A program made the position numbers and the translations under genes. The notes beneath the pieces were generated by a model. That model did no database searches. It was given only the letters and a program-made list of their open reading frames with translations, and was not told the DNA's origin. This document shows positions 122 through 6,776 of a DNA stretch of 64,000 bases, piece after piece (the first letter of the stretch is position 1; each line of letters opens with the position of its first letter). This DNA comes from an uncultured Bacteroidota bacterium. GTDB lineage: Bacteria; Bacteroidota; Bacteroidia; Chitinophagales; Chitinophagaceae. Where the stretch lies: contig CAISPO010000025.1 in the NCBI GenBank assembly GCA_903887415.1, forward strand, positions 1 to 64,000, in the 5' to 3' direction.

Positions 122-292
122 TTTTTTCACATATTTTCGGGCAATAACCACACTTCTTGGCACTATTTATTTGCGCTTCACCCCAACATTTGCTACAAAT
201 ACCGTAAATTTAATGTGTTTTATACGGCCTCACCCAACCTTTTCCTGGATGATTCGGTCTTTATAAATGTTAAGCATTAATAACAAACATAC

Positions 293-868
293 TTGTCTAT
301 CGCTTTGGCATATACTTTAACTGGCCATGCAAGTGAGTTAGAACAGCTCATTCAGGGTTGTATTCGCAACGAAAGGAGCGCACAGGAGAAGTTATATCGT
401 CTATTTTATCCTAAAATGATGGCACTCGTAAAGCGCTACATCGATGATGAAATGCAGGCGGAAGAAATTATGAACAACGGTTATTTGCGTGCTTTCCAGA
501 AAATAAAGCAGTACAATTTCCAGGGCTCTTTTGAAGGCTGGCTAAGAAAAATAGTGTTTCACGCGGTTGCCGACTATGTGAAACAAAACACACGATATTC
601 GGATAAGGTACTACTGGTAGAGAAGGACGAGTTAGTGCATAAAGACCATGCGGACAAGCTGTACTATGACCAACTTATGCAACTGGTACAGGCATTACCG
701 GGAGCAACGAGGACCGTGTTTAACATGTATGTGATGGAAGGCTTCACACACAAGGAAATAGGTACTATGCTAGGCATCAGCGAAGGCACATCCAAATGGC
801 ATTTATCCGAGGGGCGGCGGGTACTGAAAGAACGGATAGAAAAGATGGAATTGCATTTGAAAGTATAA
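293..868 (+). CDS. ECF-subfamily RNA polymerase sigma factor
   Basis: This 191-residue protein has the layout of a Bacteroidota ECF sigma-70 factor. A region-2 helix set lies around residues 25-95, with RNERSAQEKLYRLFYPKM followed by EIMNNGYLRAFQKI and the aromatic segment FEGWLRKIVFHAVADY. Region 4 lies around residues 130-185 and contains the helix-turn-helix HKEIGTMLGISEGTSKWHLS. It should direct RNA polymerase to a small regulon. No in-frame ATG exists before residue 42, so the start is probably TTG at 293, or TTG at 305; this is the weakest part of the call. It lies 80 bp upstream of the dual-membrane protein at 949, the expected place for an anti-sigma partner, and a 20-bp palindrome sits between the two genes. 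Confidence 0.88.
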   Translation: MSIALAYTLTGHASELEQLIQGCIRNERSAQEKLYRLFYPKMMALVKRYIDDEMQAEEIMNNGYLRAFQKIKQYNFQGSFEGWLRKIVFHAVADYVKQNTRYSDKVLLVEKDELVHKDHADKLYYDQLMQLVQALPGATRTVFNMYVMEGFTHKEIGTMLGISEGTSKWHLSEGRRVLKERIEKMELHLKV

Positions 869-884
869 CATATAATGAATGTAG

Positions 885-904
885 GGGTTGAAAATTTTCA
901 ACCC
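885..904. promoter_or_regulatory. 20-bp perfect palindrome between sigma and anti-sigma genes
   Basis: GGGTTGAAAATTTTCAACCC is its own reverse complement and lies 16 bp after the sigma-factor stop and 44 bp before the next start. It could be an operator for a dimeric regulator or an RNA hairpin that tunes expression between the two genes. There is no T-run, so an intrinsic terminator is less likely. Confidence 0.5.
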
Positions 905-948
905 GTGAGTGTGAAAAAAGTCATTTTTAAAACAAAAAATTTATCCAC

Positions 949-3225
949 ATGGATAAAAATTTCATTAGCATCGATGACCTGGTAAGGCAGCGATTAGGCG
1001 GAGAGGAAGAAAAAGAGCGCCCCGGGGCGTGGTTGCAAATGCGCGACCTGCTCGATAAGGAAATGCCTCAGGATAGGGGTGGGTTCCTGTATTGGCGTCG
1101 CACGTTAGGCGCTATAGCCTTGGTTTTGCTGGCTGGTGGCGCTAGTGTGGGGAGTTATTTCTATGCCACAAGATCGCTTAACGCATCAAACAATAATGCT
1201 GTTGTAGTTAGTACTTCTGCCAATAACAACCTGTCTGTAACCAATGCAATAGCTGACAACGCTACTAAAACAGCCATTGATAATACAACCGCCAAAAATT
1301 CAGATGCTGATAACACAACTCCCAAACACTCGGCAGCTAAAAAGACTACGAATGATCTGAAAAACAATAAGGTTGTAGCCGGCAACCAGGCTAATAACGA
1401 TCACACTGCCACAACCACTGAATCACGTAACACCACGAAAACAGCAAACAGTAATGATGTAAATGATACAAAACAATTAACTGTAGCACCCGCTGCAGAT
1501 AGTAAAAAAGCAAATAACAACCCCACAGCCAAGCAGGCCGTAAAAACTCCGGTTGAAAATCTTGCAGCCATTACGCCTGCAACTCATGCAGACCGAAAAC
1601 TAGCCTCAGCTCATAGTTCCGGCCGCAAACACAGCATCGCTAAAACGGAAACCACTAAGAAAAAACAATTCTTAGCAAGCATTATTGCCACAAATGACCG
1701 CAATAAGAAAGCAGCTGCAGAAAGCCGCAAAAAAGAGGCAAACAAACAACTGGCTGCTTCAAATGCGAAGACATCAGCAAAAAATCACACACTACCTACC
1801 GCTGGTGGCGCTCATCATTCAGTACGTAAGTCAGCCGCAGCGAAAGTTGGCGATGTGAATACCGCTGATCTGGCAGCAACCGGTAAACTGCCCACACCTG
1901 TAACTGGTGCCCTCAATACAGTGGCCCAAAAGAACGAACAAACGGCAAACATGGGCAAACTCGCTTTAGGAAGTGGTACAACCGGAACGAAGACCATTCC
2001 GGCAGGTTCACCAAAGTCGCCTGATGCCAATGAAAAGCCCCTTGCAGATAACAACAGCAAACCTGGCCGCGCTAAAACAGGTACATCTAAGAAAGCCGCT
2101 GGTAGCGGAACAGGTAATGGCCCTGGTGTCAATAACGCGGGTACCGCTTCCCGCAATGGTACGGCGCAGACATCTGGCACCACTCCTGCTTCGGAAGAAG
2201 TTGCAGCAGAACGGGAAAAAGTGTCGTATGACCGGGTGACAATTACCGAGCACTTCGTTTGCACAAATCCCAAAGAAGGGTATTATAAGTACGATACCAT
2301 TTCTATAGAGCAACTTGCCCGCGATCTTGGTATCAATGGCGGCAGCAGCAGTGCACATCATCCGGAGGAAACAAGGAAAGAAGAAAATACAAATTCAACC
2401 AACAGCACCAATGCGGTAGCTGCTGCCACTTCACCCATTGTTCCTGAATCATCGGCTTCTGCTACTGGCAAAAACGGCCTGGCTGCGAAACAAGCCCAAA
2501 CTGCAAAAAGCGGCACCGGCGAGTCCACACTCGATAAACTGAATGCCACTTTCAACGATGTGAAATATCACGTTTCCGGAATGCAGTTTGCACCCGGCCT
2601 TACGGGCGGTATCAATGCCACATTCTTTGGCCCCAACAGCTTTAAGGGCTTCCAGTTCGGCGCTACTGGTAACTTTATTTTCGGCGATAATGTTAGCGCT
2701 ATGGCAGAGCTCAAGTACTTCCATCGTATCAACAACAACTACTCGCTCGATGATAATTACTACACCTACACTCAGGTGGGCGCAGGCCAGTGGAGCAAGC
2801 AGCAACTGTCTAATTCATACAGTTTCTCTACATTGCACAGCATAGAGATGCCCATCACCATCAGGTACATGAAGAGCCATTTCAGTTTTTATGCCGGTGC
2901 TAACCTGGTTTATAGTTTCTCTATAAATACCGGTAAATCTGAACAGCCAAGTGCATTGACGCCAATTCTGGTAAATGCAATGGGCAACGACAATACGCCA
3001 AAAGTGCAGCAGAGCGATTTTAATTCGAGGTTTGGTGTAGGCTACATAGCTGGCTTATCCTACGAGGTGTATCCTAATGTCACATTAGATTTTCGCAACG
3101 TACAGACCGTTTGGGACAATGGCGCATCGCAGGGCGCTAAATACATCTCTAACCAGCTTTACAAAAGCCCTTCATTCCAGGTATCTGTTGGCTACCGCCT
3201 GGGCAACAATAAAAAGAAGGACTAA
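949..3225 (+). CDS. Putative dual-membrane-spanning anti-sigma factor (N-terminal TM, long linker, C-terminal outer-membrane beta-barrel)
   Basis: This 758-residue protein has three parts. Residues 1-47 are a short charged segment with no signal-peptide character, likely cytoplasmic. One transmembrane helix follows at about 49-70 (TLGAIALVLLAGGASVGSYF). Residues about 72-525 are low-complexity, rich in Ala, Asn, Thr and Lys, and long enough to cross the periplasm. Residues about 530-758 have alternating aromatic/glycine strands like a PorT-type or OMP_b-brl beta-barrel, ending in FQVSVGYRLG. The architecture and position directly after an ECF sigma gene match the dual-membrane anti-sigma (Dma) class described in Bacteroides, where an outer-membrane signal controls a cytoplasmic sigma factor. 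The N-terminus would hold the sigma protein. I infer function from architecture and context, not from a recognised anti-sigma motif. Confidence 0.72.
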   Translation: MDKNFISIDDLVRQRLGGEEEKERPGAWLQMRDLLDKEMPQDRGGFLYWRRTLGAIALVLLAGGASVGSYFYATRSLNASNNNAVVVSTSANNNLSVTNAIADNATKTAIDNTTAKNSDADNTTPKHSAAKKTTNDLKNNKVVAGNQANNDHTATTTESRNTTKTANSNDVNDTKQLTVAPAADSKKANNNPTAKQAVKTPVENLAAITPATHADRKLASAHSSGRKHSIAKTETTKKKQFLASIIATNDRNKKAAAESRKKEANKQLAASNAKTSAKNHTLPTAGGAHHSVRKSAAAKVGDVNTADLAATGKLPTPVTGALNTVAQKNEQTANMGKLALGSGTTGTKTIPAGSPKSPDANEKPLADNNSKPGRAKTGTSKKAAGSGTGNGPGVNNAGTASRNGTAQTSGTTPASEEVAAEREKVSYDRVTITEHFVCTNPKEGYYKYDTISIEQLARDLGINGGSSSAHHPEETRKEENTNSTNSTNAVAAATSPIVPESSASATGKNGLAAKQAQTAKSGTGESTLDKLNATFNDVKYHVSGMQFAPGLTGGINATFFGPNSFKGFQFGATGNFIFGDNVSAMAELKYFHRINNNYSLDDNYYTYTQVGAGQWSKQQLSNSYSFSTLHSIEMPITIRYMKSHFSFYAGANLVYSFSINTGKSEQPSALTPILVNAMGNDNTPKVQQSDFNSRFGVGYIAGLSYEVYPNVTLDFRNVQTVWDNGASQGAKYISNQLYKSPSFQVSVGYRLGNNKKKD

Positions 3226-3245
3226 CAATAATATTCAATGGCATA

Positions 3246-3312
3246 CCGCATCTGCGAAAGCAGATGCGGCTATCAAGAACCTGGGTGTGCGCTCGGGTTT
3301 TTCTTTTTTATC
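3246..3312 (+). terminator. Probable transcription terminator
   Basis: A perfect 10-bp stem, CCGCATCTGC/GCAGATGCGG with a GAAA loop (3246-3269), is followed by GGGTTTTTCTTTTTTA at about 3296-3311. It lies 20 bp after the anti-sigma-like gene and would end that operon. Confidence 0.7.
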
Positions 3313-3353
3313 GGGCCCCTTGCGCAAATCATAGATTTTCATTAATTTAGGAA

Positions 3354-4145
3354 ATGAAGCGCCCCGTTTTTCTCGTCCTCATGTTGCTATCCGCTTGCTT
3401 ATCCTACGGTCAGGAAGATAGCTCATTATACCAGTGGGGCAATAGTTCGGCAAGCTACAATATCCGTTTTTTCAAAACTCATTGTAACGACAGGGAATAT
3501 GCAATTGCGGGCTACTATGTGCTGAAAAATTCCCACGATGGCTGGGGCAGCACCCAGCTTTTGGAAATTTGTTCTATAATTCTTCAAAGAGCACAAACTT
3601 CAGTAGATCCATCTTTGGAACATGGGTATAGTCAGATATACAACCTTGCAGCCGATAAGATCAGCAAGATATATGAAGCTCGTAACAGGTACGACTCAGC
3701 ATTACATTACCTCTGCATATCGGATACGGTACACCGTTACGTCACGAGTTGCGGAAATGATTATTACATGCACAGGATTATTAATGCCTGTCGTTATGCG
3801 GATATCTACGAGAAAATTAATGATACGGATCGCGCCTTCACCATTTTATTGAAGGAAGCATTTAATACAGAAACAAACAGGCACTTTATAAAGCTACAGC
3901 CGCTGTTGTCAAGATACGAGAGGAAAAAACTAAAAAGGGAATTGAACTATTCTATCCTCCATTATGTTTCAGATAGCTTTGCCCGCACAACCGGTCACAA
4001 TGGGCCGTACATTGTTTTTCTGGTTACAAAAATTTACTTCTATGCCTGGAGCGTTAACGAAACAGCCAATAGCATAGCACTAAAGAAAAAGACAATTGCT
4101 TACCTGAAGAACACTCCATTCTACACAATGGTTATGCGCATGTGA
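3354..4145 (+). CDS. Exported protein of unknown function
   Basis: This 263-residue protein starts with an N-terminal export signal, MKRPVFLVLMLLSACLSYGQ. It could be cut after Gln20, or be a lipoprotein with Cys15 in LSAC. The mature part looks helical, with repeated Tyr/Ala/Leu patterns around residues 95-190 (for example ISKIYEARNRYDSALHYL and CRYADIYEKINDTDRAF) that resemble degenerate TPR units. No enzyme motif is visible. It stands alone: a terminator precedes it, and the next gene converges on it from the minus strand with a 44-bp gap. Confidence 0.65.
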   Translation: MKRPVFLVLMLLSACLSYGQEDSSLYQWGNSSASYNIRFFKTHCNDREYAIAGYYVLKNSHDGWGSTQLLEICSIILQRAQTSVDPSLEHGYSQIYNLAADKISKIYEARNRYDSALHYLCISDTVHRYVTSCGNDYYMHRIINACRYADIYEKINDTDRAFTILLKEAFNTETNRHFIKLQPLLSRYERKKLKRELNYSILHYVSDSFARTTGHNGPYIVFLVTKIYFYAWSVNETANSIALKKKTIAYLKNTPFYTMVMRM

Positions 4146-4155
4146 TCTACTCGCG

Positions 4156-4184
4156 GACTTACGACATGACTCGTGACTTACGAC
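4156..4184. repeat. Short direct repeat GACTTACGAC
   Basis: GACTTACGAC occurs at 4156-4165 and 4175-4184, a 19-bp step, inside the 44-bp gap between two convergent genes. It looks like a simple intergenic repeat. No function is apparent. Confidence 0.5.
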
Positions 4185-4189
4185 TAAAC

Positions 4190-4975
4190 TCACTCATTCA
4201 CCTTCCCCATAGCCGCATTCTTCATCTGGGTTGTTACGGTATGCCCCAGGTAGCGTTCTATCCCTTTTTCTATCAGGTAGATAAGCGGGGTCAGCACAAT
4301 GGCCATAGTAAATTTATAAGCATAATTCACAAGTCCTATCGCTATCACCCGCTGGTAGCTCCACCCCTTACCTATCTTGAAAGCGATGAACAGCACAATG
4401 AAGCTATCCACCAGTTGCGAGATGATCGTTGACCCCGTTGCTCTTAGCCACACATGCTTTTCCCCGGTCACCCTTTTTATCCGGTGAAAGATCCATACAT
4501 CCACAAGCTGGCTCACCAGGAAGGCGATAAGACTGCCCACAATGATCCACATCCCTTGCCCGAAGATGTTGGAAAACGCGTCCTGCATGTTTGGCACACC
4601 GGTATCTTTCTGGCTGCCCACCCAGAAATTGGTATCTGCCGGCACCTGGATGGCAAAGTAAAACATCAGGAATGCATAGCTGATCAGCGCTATGGCTATA
4701 TACGAGATCCTTTTTATAGCCCTTGGCCCGAAGTATTCGTTCACAATATCTGTCATAATAAACTCCAGCGGCCATAGCAGTACGCCGCAGGTAAGCGTAA
4801 AAGTCAGCCCTTGCTCCCCCAGCAGTGAAAAAGGGTGGGGCGTCATGCCAAACACCCGCTCCAAAGAAAATAGCTTGCCGCCTATGCATTCCGCTATCAG
4901 TGCATTCGCAACGAAAAAAGAAGTAAGTACAATAAAGAGTTTTGTCGGTTTGTCATTTAGTATTTTATGTACCAT
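4190..4975 (-). CDS. Queuosine precursor transporter, YhhQ/DUF165 family
   Basis: This 261-residue integral membrane protein is probably an importer of a queuosine precursor (preQ0/preQ1 type) for tRNA modification. Family features include the early segment KLFIVLTSFFVANALIAECIGGKL, the polar in-membrane stretch FIMTDIVNEYFG, and SQLVDVWIFHRIK followed by STIISQLVDSFIVLFIAF. About six hydrophobic helices are visible, and the length is normal for YhhQ. The reading frame extends 26 codons upstream, but a -7 box (TAGCTTTG on the minus strand, 5020-5027) lies inside that extension, so I place the start at MVHKILND. It has its own promoter and ends opposite the gene at 3354-4145. Confidence 0.88.
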   Translation of the reverse strand: MVHKILNDKPTKLFIVLTSFFVANALIAECIGGKLFSLERVFGMTPHPFSLLGEQGLTFTLTCGVLLWPLEFIMTDIVNEYFGPRAIKRISYIAIALISYAFLMFYFAIQVPADTNFWVGSQKDTGVPNMQDAFSNIFGQGMWIIVGSLIAFLVSQLVDVWIFHRIKRVTGEKHVWLRATGSTIISQLVDSFIVLFIAFKIGKGWSYQRVIAIGLVNYAYKFTMAIVLTPLIYLIEKGIERYLGHTVTTQMKNAAMGKVNE

Positions 4976-5019
4976 ATTGAATATGAATGTGAAGCGAGAA
5001 AAAGTGAAAGCAGTAATTC

Positions 5020-5054
5020 CAAAGCTACGGATAACTGGAAATAGGTGGCACAAA
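5020..5054 (-). promoter_or_regulatory. Bacteroidota-type promoter for the YhhQ gene
   Basis: On the minus strand, TAGCTTTG at 5027-5020 fits the -7 consensus TAnnTTTG. A TTTG at 5054-5051 could be the -33 element, although the 23-nt spacer is slightly long. Transcription would begin near 5013, about 38 nt before the start codon. Confidence 0.5.
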
Positions 5055-5144
5055 AGTTGTATAAATCTGGCATAATCTCTTCAAAAAACGCATACAACGA
5101 TAGATTTATTTAGGTAATTTCACTAACATTTACCCCCTTCGCCC

Positions 5145-6776
5145 ATGCAGCAGGTTATCGACTTTTTCGGAGGCTTATTTGATACATCCCTGTGGCCTCC
5201 GAGATGGCATTGCGGGCGGTGGAGCGAATTTCACGGCTGGCTGTATATCATCAGCGATCTGCTTATCTTTTCCGCGTACTTCGCTATGCCCGTTATAATT
5301 GTTCGGTACATAGCCTCGCGCACACATGCCCGGTTTCACAAAGTTTACTTTTTATTCGCTGCATTTATTCTTGCCTGCGGCTTCACCCATCTGCTCGATG
5401 CTATCACGTTTTGGTATCCTGTTTATCGTTTCAATGCCTTGGTGCGGTTTATCACTGGCGTCATTAGTTGGACAACTGTTTATTACCTTATCAAGCTGTT
5501 ACCGGTCGCATTTTCCTTAAAAACAGCCGAGGAGCTGGAAGCCGAAGTGGAGCAACGTAAAAGAGCAGAAGAAGATCTGCACGTTAAGGTACGTTTGCTG
5601 AATGAAGCGCAGGAAATAGCTAAAATGGGGCACTGGGAGTTGGTGCCTGATGCCAATAGTTTTATGTTCTCAGACAACCTGGTCAAAATATACGGGGCAG
5701 GGCAACCATACATTTCCTTCGCGCAGTTCCTGGAACACGTACACTCCGAAGACCGGAATAATGCCGATACCGCTATCAAACAGGCGATAGCCGATAAGCG
5801 GTCTATCGACTTTTATCACCGGATCAATACACCGGAAGGCCTCGTGAAGACCATGCATACCAGGGGTGAAATAGTAACCGGTAAAGACGGGGGCATATTG
5901 AAAATTATTGGTACAGCACAGGATGTAACGGAGCAAAAGCAGATAGAGCAGGAGTTGCTCATAAAATCTTCTGCCCTGGAGTCGAAAAACGACGAGCTGC
6001 AAAAATTCGCTTACGTAGCCTCGCATGATTTGCAAGAGCCGCTGAGGAAAATAAGGACGTTTATTTCCAGGATGCAAAACCCTGCCGAAGACTATTCGCC
6101 TGAAAAGGCGCACCAGTACATGGAAAAAATAATAGGTGCTGCAGCGCGTATGCAAAAGCTTATTGAAGATGTTTTAAGTTTTTCCAGGATATCTTCTGCC
6201 GATTCATTGTTCCTGTTTGCCCGCACTGACCTCAGCGTTGTCGTTGCTTCGGTGCTTACTGATATGGAGGTGTTTATTGAGAACAGCAAGGCGGTGATAC
6301 ACGTTTCTCAGCTGCCTGTTATCGAGGCCAATGATACGCAGATGGGGCAATTGTTTCAGAACATGATCGCCAATTCCATTAAGTTTAAAAAAGACGATGC
6401 AGATCCCGTTATCAGCATATCTGCAAGGGTAATTGGCGGGTTTGACATAGCGGCGCCGGGCCACATAAAAGCACGTTACAAATTTACGGGCTGGAAAGAA
6501 AATAAATTCTGGGACCGCGAGCAATTTGTAAGTATCCGGATCACGGATAATGGTATCGGCTTCGACCCGCAGTTCGCAGACCGGATTTTCGAGGCCTTTC
6601 AGCGGTTAAGCGGCATGTATGAGGGCACAGGTATAGGTCTCGCCATATGCAAAAAGATCGTTGAGAACCACAATGGTATGATCACCGTGGAAAGTAAGCC
6701 GGGCGAGGGAACGTCTTTTACTATAACGCTTCCGGTTTCCCAGGCAAATTTTGACCAGAACATTAACAGTTTATAG
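5145..6776 (+). CDS. Ethylene-receptor-like sensor histidine kinase (ETR1-type TM sensor, PAS, HisKA, HATPase)
   Basis: This 543-residue kinase has an N-terminal sensor of three membrane helices (about residues 33-57, 66-90 and 97-123) that resembles plant ETR1. Asp38, Tyr45, Pro49, Cys78 (in ACGFTHLLD) and His82 keep the spacing I recall for ETR1 Asp25, Tyr32, Pro36, Cys65 and His69, the residues tied to copper and ethylene binding. A short coiled coil (about 126-155) leads to a PAS domain (about 150-266, ending IIGTAQDVTEQKQ). HisKA follows with phospho-acceptor His294 in ASHDLQEPL. The HATPase domain has Asn406/Asn410, DNGIGF (468-473) and GTGIGLA (494-500). It should autophosphorylate and pass phosphate to the receiver protein encoded 21 bp downstream. 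The ligand is inferred from residues, not known. Confidence 0.92.
   Translation: MQQVIDFFGGLFDTSLWPPRWHCGRWSEFHGWLYIISDLLIFSAYFAMPVIIVRYIASRTHARFHKVYFLFAAFILACGFTHLLDAITFWYPVYRFNALVRFITGVISWTTVYYLIKLLPVAFSLKTAEELEAEVEQRKRAEEDLHVKVRLLNEAQEIAKMGHWELVPDANSFMFSDNLVKIYGAGQPYISFAQFLEHVHSEDRNNADTAIKQAIADKRSIDFYHRINTPEGLVKTMHTRGEIVTGKDGGILKIIGTAQDVTEQKQIEQELLIKSSALESKNDELQKFAYVASHDLQEPLRKIRTFISRMQNPAEDYSPEKAHQYMEKIIGAAARMQKLIEDVLSFSRISSADSLFLFARTDLSVVVASVLTDMEVFIENSKAVIHVSQLPVIEANDTQMGQLFQNMIANSIKFKKDDADPVISISARVIGGFDIAAPGHIKARYKFTGWKENKFWDREQFVSIRITDNGIGFDPQFADRIFEAFQRLSGMYEGTGIGLAICKKIVENHNGMITVESKPGEGTSFTITLPVSQANFDQNINSL

Follow-up and report, generated by a model that had tools for sequence, protein, structure and literature searches.

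At the start of a 64,000-nucleotide (nt) stretch from an uncultured Bacteroidota bacterium of the family Chitinophagaceae (assembly GCA_903887415.1, contig CAISPO010000025.1, positions 1 to 64,000; the whole stretch is called the window below), a gene for an extracytoplasmic function (ECF) sigma factor is followed by a gene for a 758-residue protein. We consider it likely that the two form an autoregulated sigma/anti-sigma switch, whose anti-sigma ends in an outer-membrane barrel and whose promoters serve cargo of the type IX secretion system (T9SS). Read at the level of sequence, this view draws on the gene pair, the domain anatomy of the partner, a conserved promoter, a genome-wide excess of that promoter where the pair is present, and the nature of the genes downstream of it. 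The pair appears Dma-like (dual-membrane anti-sigma) by architecture, and the predicted autoregulated T9SS-cargo regulon, which concerns function, would be the new part. The anatomy and the promoter are well supported; the regulation and the sensing are what we infer.

Anatomy and conservation of the pair

Both open reading frames (ORFs) lie where the first-pass annotation of the window had placed them, at 293-868 and 949-3225, and the following features were assigned.

232..261, + strand: ACCCAAC-N18-GTCTT, predicted autoregulatory promoter dependent on the sigma factor, with the start codon 32 nt on; conserved box
293..868, + strand: ECF sigma factor gene, 191 aa, TTG start; from family scans
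949..3225, + strand: predicted Dma-type dual-membrane-spanning anti-sigma protein, 758 aa; from family scan, conservation and model
949..1083, + strand: N-terminal cytoplasmic, predicted sigma-binding segment, residues 1-45; best-conserved part, with kin segments beside two other ECF sigmas
1105..1161, + strand: predicted inner-membrane helix, about residues 53-71, after WRR; the protein's only hydrophobic peak
1174..2544, + strand: low-complexity periplasmic linker, residues 76-532; from composition and low identity
2218..2325, + strand: semi-conserved beta-hairpin island in the linker, residues about 424-459; from conservation and modelled strands
2545..3222, + strand: predicted C-terminal 8-stranded outer-membrane barrel, residues 533-758; from Pfam, AlphaFold2 and PDB matches

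The product of 293-868 matched Sigma70_r2 (8e-12) and Sigma70_r4_2 (2e-12) in a Pfam-type family scan and scored 70 bits against a cut-off of 43 for TIGR02937. Wherever the match to a relative extends to residue 1, the TTG start (293-295) is retained, and conservation of a non-AUG codon here may restrict the synthesis of the sigma factor. In the window, a stop codon in the same frame is found shortly 5′ of the TTG.

The partner begins with about 45 polar residues, and its 19-residue hydropathy windows above 1.4 begin at residues 51-56 only, which indicates a single transmembrane helix; a hydrophobic peak lies at a similar place in the relatives, whose first 200 residues were scanned. The linker had been described as very long and rich in Asn, Ala, Thr and Lys. 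The composition was borne out (A 16%, T 13%, N 11%, K 10% and S 9% of 457 residues) and so was the length, but this length is not unusual: across 68 complete proteins, including that of the window, the linker was estimated at 260-735 residues (median 435), and it is thus ordinary in the clade. In an AlphaFold2 model of part of the protein, the predicted local distance difference test (pLDDT) fell below 50 for linker residues 462-526, which together with composition and low conservation points to a long disordered tether, and the island at residues ~424-459 formed two strands with pLDDT of about 62-84. The C-terminal region folded as a barrel, as had been proposed. The model, built from an alignment of the window protein with 31 relatives (32 sequences), has eight strands, with most blocks at pLDDT ≥90, a mean pLDDT of 76 and a predicted template modelling score (pTM) of 0.58 overall. 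Its best PDB matches were OmpA, OmpX, Ail and NspA, with modest TM-scores of 0.46-0.59 by target length in the first seven. When residues 536-758 were scanned alone, OMP_b-brl was found over its cut-off at 4e-7.

The sigma protein was used to scan the contigs of relatives, and the best 80 of 101 relatives were taken as loci; they carry Bacteroidota names except for L055, named Azovibrio restrictus, which is perhaps misbinned, and one of them, L013, comes from a cultivated strain of Flavipsychrobacter stenotrophus. The pair recurs: a partner with the same N-terminal motif lies 3′ of the sigma gene in 73 of these 80 loci (72 by pattern, and L068 by eye, where unread bases break the ORF). Besides L068, these comprise 67 complete partners and 5 cut by contig ends, whereas the seven loci without the standard partner are two contig ends, two split versions and three with a different C-terminus. 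Judged from these sequences, the arrangement of sigma and partner is far from chance.

Column conservation, computed over 64 complete sequences including the window, peaks in residues 1-40 and in the barrel and is lowest in the linker. Identity to nine hand-picked relatives is 69-98% in residues 1-45, 13-46% in linker residues 76-420 and 57-92% in the barrel. Both ends are conserved but the tether between them is not, a pattern expected of a tethered switch. The protein set left out L037 and L045 (no downstream ORF), L068, L077, L078 and the contig-end-cut partners L005, L017, L035, L057 and L074; the conservation profile additionally left out L069-L072 and L079-L081. Alignments A1 to A4 covered 22, 31, 20 and 31 of the 80 loci, respectively.

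The first-pass annotation saw no recognisable anti-sigma motif, a statement that we can correct. Conservation is highest in residues 1-45, in which D9, W28, M31 and L35 are invariant and which share the consensus M-x-x-N-x-I-x-I-D-D-L-x-x-x-x-L-x-G ... GAW-x-x-M-x-x-LLDKEMP, and an N-terminal profile matches two paralogs in the same genome, on contigs C66 (E 1e-7) and C38 (E 3e-4), each beside its own ECF sigma. The second pair (L098, G000:C66:18000-24257, positions 2334-5811) has a 953-aa partner with a linker of more than 600 residues by eye and an inverted repeat 5′ of its sigma gene. The third (L101, G000:C38, positions 505-2278) has a 394-aa partner with a much shorter linker, for which no Pfam or NCBIfam match was found. 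At L102 (G000:C8, positions 847-3105), an ECF sigma gene is followed by a different anti-sigma-like protein (weak PRK13920 match) and then by a separately encoded exported protein. The barrel sequence alone found matches in 3 of 148 genomes phylum-wide and is a poor probe for Dma proteins at large.

A predicted interface between the sigma factor and the partner N-terminus was examined in a pseudo-fusion from locus L020, in which the sigma factor was joined to the first 48 partner residues, with intergenic stops read as glycine and 20 paired rows. By DSSP, the model contains two beta elements only, at sigma residues 114-116, between the sigma2 and sigma4 domains, and at model residues 216-218 (partner residues 5-7), followed by partner helices at model residues 219-227 and 238-249. 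The two elements presumably pair in the model. Among other ECF sigmas, its top Foldseek matches include chains of the AlgU-MucA, sigmaE-RseA and SigW-RsiW entries. Beta pairing between the sigma2-sigma4 linker and the partner N-terminus is therefore possible, but with a pTM of 0.45 and a mean pLDDT of 66.5 the interface is weakly supported, suggestive and not proof.

The promoter and the genes behind it

Eighty sequences with at least 150 nt upstream, namely the window and 79 relatives, were checked for the promoter; L075 starts too late. CCAAC-N18-GTCT lies 5′ of the sigma gene in the window and in 74 of the 79 relatives, with a spacing of 18 in all 75 boxes (17-19 were tried) and at 30-33 nt before the TTG start in 63 of them. 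The pattern occurred in 0.09% of base-shuffled upstream stretches (a rate of 0.0009). The five relatives without the box (L077-L081) are the most distant, with sigmas 39-44% identical. A box of this kind in front of an ECF sigma gene usually signals autoregulation, and we therefore predict that this sigma factor is autoregulated.

Matches in the window's own genome were too few to define a regulon from that genome alone (11 for the looser CCCAAC-N18-GTCT against 7 for its control), and a comparative route across genomes was therefore taken. In 35 genus genomes, ACCCAAC-N18-GTCTW gave 167 matches, own promoters included, against 35 for a reversed-pattern control, whereas spacers of N17 and N23 gave 18 (control 28) and 26 (control 31), respectively. 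Among 147 family genomes, the 28 with a close ortholog, defined by an N-terminal segment match at E ≤1e-12, a cut chosen after the list had been seen, held 103 matches in 104.6 Mb (megabases), or 0.98/Mb (control 15, 0.143/Mb). The 119 without one held 48 matches in 520.1 Mb, or 0.092/Mb (control 150, 0.288/Mb). The motif is thus about ten times denser where a close ortholog is present, and the control pattern goes the opposite way. The difference gave a Mann-Whitney p of 4e-9 after one own-promoter site had been removed from each of the 28 genomes, in a test that ignores kinship between genomes and counts sites of sister species that are not independent.

We then turn to the genes behind the sites. 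From the matches listed, 120 regions were fetched around sites not recognised as the sigma's own. Together they contain 121 sites, one of which, in L270, is nevertheless the promoter of the sigma gene itself. For 71 of the 121, a first script placed the start of an ORF 10-100 nt downstream, and 65 of these 71 ORFs were signal-peptide-like; at 3942 random positions in relatives, the same script found the ORF condition in 33.9% and both conditions in 4.0%. A recount from ATG starts placed 69 of the 121 sites 8-100 nt before an ORF, 65 of them signal-peptide-like in a crude hydropathy test. The downstream ORFs fell into 18 BLAST clusters with at least two members and 24 singletons.

Complete near ORFs number 54, and they give the fairer share: in 33 of them a T9SS sorting domain exceeds the cut-off, and in 2 it scores slightly under it. 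The other 19 comprise 10 that match a lipobox pattern, 3 that are PorP/SprF-like (L188 by scan, TIGR03519 at 187 bits, and two by BLAST cluster) and 6 of mixed kind, two of them probably chance. Longer regions were obtained for 40 sites, 20 from non-lipoprotein clusters and 20 of the ~33 with incomplete near ORFs, with short contigs skipped. In these, 35 of 37 complete scanned ORFs scored above the NCBIfam cut-off of TIGR04183 or TIGR04131, both models of T9SS sorting domains, a proportion that overstates the T9SS share because the longer regions were chosen for long, mostly non-lipoprotein ORFs. The two just below are L303 (21.9 against 23) and L311 (33.1 against 35); L293 and L294, among the 35, start more than 100 nt from the site, and the remaining 3 of the 40 sites are L308 and L312, with cut ORFs, and L314, without a near ATG ORF. 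Given the T9SS sorting domains, lipoproteins and PorP/SprF-like proteins behind the sites, the pair probably controls T9SS cargo. The genome encodes SprA and at least 150 type-A sorting domains, so the predicted regulon would be a small subset of the cargo.

Several points weigh against this reading. Besides the late choice of the ortholog cut, the kinship behind the p value, the selection of the longer regions and the low scores of the fusion model, 52 of the 121 sites have no ATG ORF at a distance of 8-100 nt, some of these being certainly chance matches, and 15 of the 69 near ORFs are cut and unclassified. A single exact site, as the own promoter alone would give, is found in 7 of the 28 ortholog-bearing genomes and in genus genome G170. 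The scarcity of matches in the own genome belongs here as well: five exact sites only, own promoter included, indicate a small regulon there. These are the sigma promoter, sites before lipoprotein-like genes on C1 and C62, one before a large C55 protein whose end is unread, and a doubtful site on C42; on C52, a sequence that departs from the pattern at one base lies before the gene of a T9SS type-B protein. The C42 site (G000:C42:1754-1783, L250) and its cluster of orthologs (L213, L239, L244, L253 and L265) were set aside as a probable false positive, as the pattern in L250 overlaps a hairpin that by eye resembles a terminator. We also do not offer the C1 lipoprotein, which has homologs in 15 of the 35 genus genomes, as a conserved target: its 82%-identical homolog (L134, G169) carries a similar box whose spacer is longer by one base, and the box was absent from the 13 further, more distant homologs examined. 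A cluster of ECF sigma genes ~187 nt downstream of sites is likewise not claimed as a target.

Proposed mechanism, rival explanations and variant forms

Overall, we suggest a putative mechanism for the pair. The cytoplasmic residues 1-45 would bind the ECF sigma factor and sequester it at the inner membrane, with the transmembrane helix as an anchor and the long flexible linker as a tether across the periplasm. The C-terminal barrel, placed in the outer membrane by the predicted topology, would be the sensing end, and a change at the outer membrane would cause release of the sigma factor. The freed sigma factor would recognise its own promoter through ACCCAAC-N18-GTCTW, together with a small set of like promoters. 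Most of the targets would be exported to the surface: T9SS cargo whose C-terminal sorting domain is of type A or B, lipoproteins, and T9SS membrane proteins of the PorP/SprF type. In this manner, a reading taken at the outer membrane would directly set which T9SS cargo gets made.

The outer-membrane end of the partner varies among the most distant relatives. In Pedobacter (L077 and L078), the anti-sigma-like protein is short, with an N-terminus related by eye, and a distinct gene begins 20 nt after it; in L077 the product of this gene matches the outer-membrane barrel family of Pfam (PF13568, 2e-10). In L079-L081 (sigma 39-40% identical), T9SS-tailed anti-sigma-like proteins are encoded at 3247-4647 in L079, 5562-6956 in L080 and 5555-7123 in L081. 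These carry two to three N-terminal copies of a W-containing motif by eye, then a transmembrane helix, an N-rich linker, PKD domains and, at the C-terminus instead of the barrel, a T9SS signal domain (PF13585 above its cut-off, with E 9e-9 to 3e-10; TIGR04131 below its cut-off). This domain provides an independent tie of such anti-sigmas to T9SS, and it gives grounds for a further possibility, that T9SS itself is sensed. The barrel form would then sense it by way of the outer membrane, and in L079-L081 secretion would pull on or export the anti-sigma tail as a direct trigger. We hold this idea tentatively, as one that is rather less probable than not.

A different explanation accepts the Dma-type pair but makes its link to T9SS indirect: another ECF sigma factor of the same species would read ACCCAAC-N18-GTCTW and merely also transcribe this sigma gene. 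An ECF sigma with the same specificity and distribution could indeed use these promoters, which is a further point against our reading; at least three further ECF sigmas were met in passing in the genome, and overlapping ECF regulons are discussed in passages on Flavobacterium psychrophilum (PMC9723704). However, the promoter precedes this very sigma gene in the window and in all checkable relatives but L077-L081, including those with sigmas only 52-54% identical, the genome-wide excess of the motif tracks the presence of the pair, and CCAAC-N18-GTCT was absent from the fetched loci of three paralogous sigma genes. We therefore regard an indirect link as unlikely.

The remaining explanations concern the partner itself. 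The 758-aa protein might be an ordinary exported barrel whose hydrophobic segment is a late, cleaved signal peptide, so that barrel and N-terminus are unjoined in the cell. The two neighbouring Pedobacter genes for these parts indicate that their linkage is not universally required; nonetheless, a single ORF holds both in the 67 complete closer relatives, and the N-terminus is the most conserved part, which would be unexpected for a signal-peptide extension. We find this explanation improbable. Less probable again is that the C-terminal domain is a periplasmic beta-barrel or a lipocalin-like sensor and not an outer-membrane protein. Although a barrel prediction is by itself no proof of membrane insertion, and the whole protein scores 27.3 against the Pfam cut-off of 27 for the barrel domain, the eight-strand model matches OmpA, OmpX, Ail and NspA best in the PDB, and OMP_b-brl clears its cut-off in the domain-only scan. 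A switch in which one chain joins the sigma-binding segment to an outer-membrane barrel is thus the reading that we prefer.

Surroundings and relation to known systems

No wider operon is claimed beyond the pair: the gene at 3354-4145 was matched in 1 of the 80 loci, where flanks are limited. A membrane protein on the minus strand at 4190-5053, which presumably resembles queuosine precursor transporters, is matched close to the pair in 34 of the 80 loci. The first 50 bases of the window, at the contig start (C25:1), form an inverted repeat that reads as a perfect palindrome, which might reflect an artefact of the contig end, a mobile element or a terminator-like one.

FecR/RseA-type anti-sigmas resemble the 758-aa protein in having a cytoplasmic ECF-binding segment and one transmembrane helix. 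Their chains stop in the periplasm, and the outer-membrane signal reaches them via other proteins, whereas here the chain itself carries the predicted barrel.

For the systems that follow, our comparison draws on passages of the cited papers. The likeness to Dma of Bacteroides proposed in the first-pass annotation is supported, since the four architectural features listed for Dma proteins, an N-terminal anti-sigma segment, one transmembrane helix, a long disordered tether and a C-terminal barrel, are all present by sequence, beside an adjacent ECF sigma as in Dma (PMC13088901). Further traits of the Dma family are a sigma of group ECF21, confinement to Bacteroidota and release of the sigma once the anti-sigma is lost. 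In contrast, the described Dma outputs are outer-membrane vesicle production and polysaccharide-utilisation loci (PMC13088901), and the predicted output here is T9SS cargo. Similar to this sigma factor as predicted, SigP of the PorXY-SigP system of Porphyromonas gingivalis is an autoregulated ECF sigma that controls T9SS genes, but it is bound and activated by the response regulator PorX and its main described targets are T9SS machinery genes (PMC4800418, PMC7712824). Compared by eye, the A-rich SigP motif (PMC4800418) is unlike ACCCAAC-N18-GTCTW, and the motif here is not of the SigP type. SM6 promoters of F. psychrophilum likewise place an ECF-type motif before T9SS genes and an ECF/anti-sigma pair; however, they have a CGT box at -10, the T9SS targets named are machinery genes such as GldN and PorU, and the passages describe no barrel-bearing anti-sigma (PMC9723704). 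Among the open-access matches listed, judged by titles and abstract openings and with most subscription papers uncovered, we found no dual-membrane anti-sigma that controls T9SS cargo.

Dma proteins have been described as links from the outer membrane to transcription, and the passages of the Dma2 paper give the sensed substrate as unknown (PMC13088901). The pair described here would add a large clade with a clear promoter motif and a testable predicted regulon of T9SS cargo, together with natural variants in which the outer-membrane end belongs to the anti-sigma chain as a barrel, has a gene of its own or takes the form of a T9SS sorting signal. Taken together, the motif, the regulon and the variants may provide a concrete hypothesis for what Dma-type proteins sense, and they suggest control of type IX secretion at the level of its cargo.

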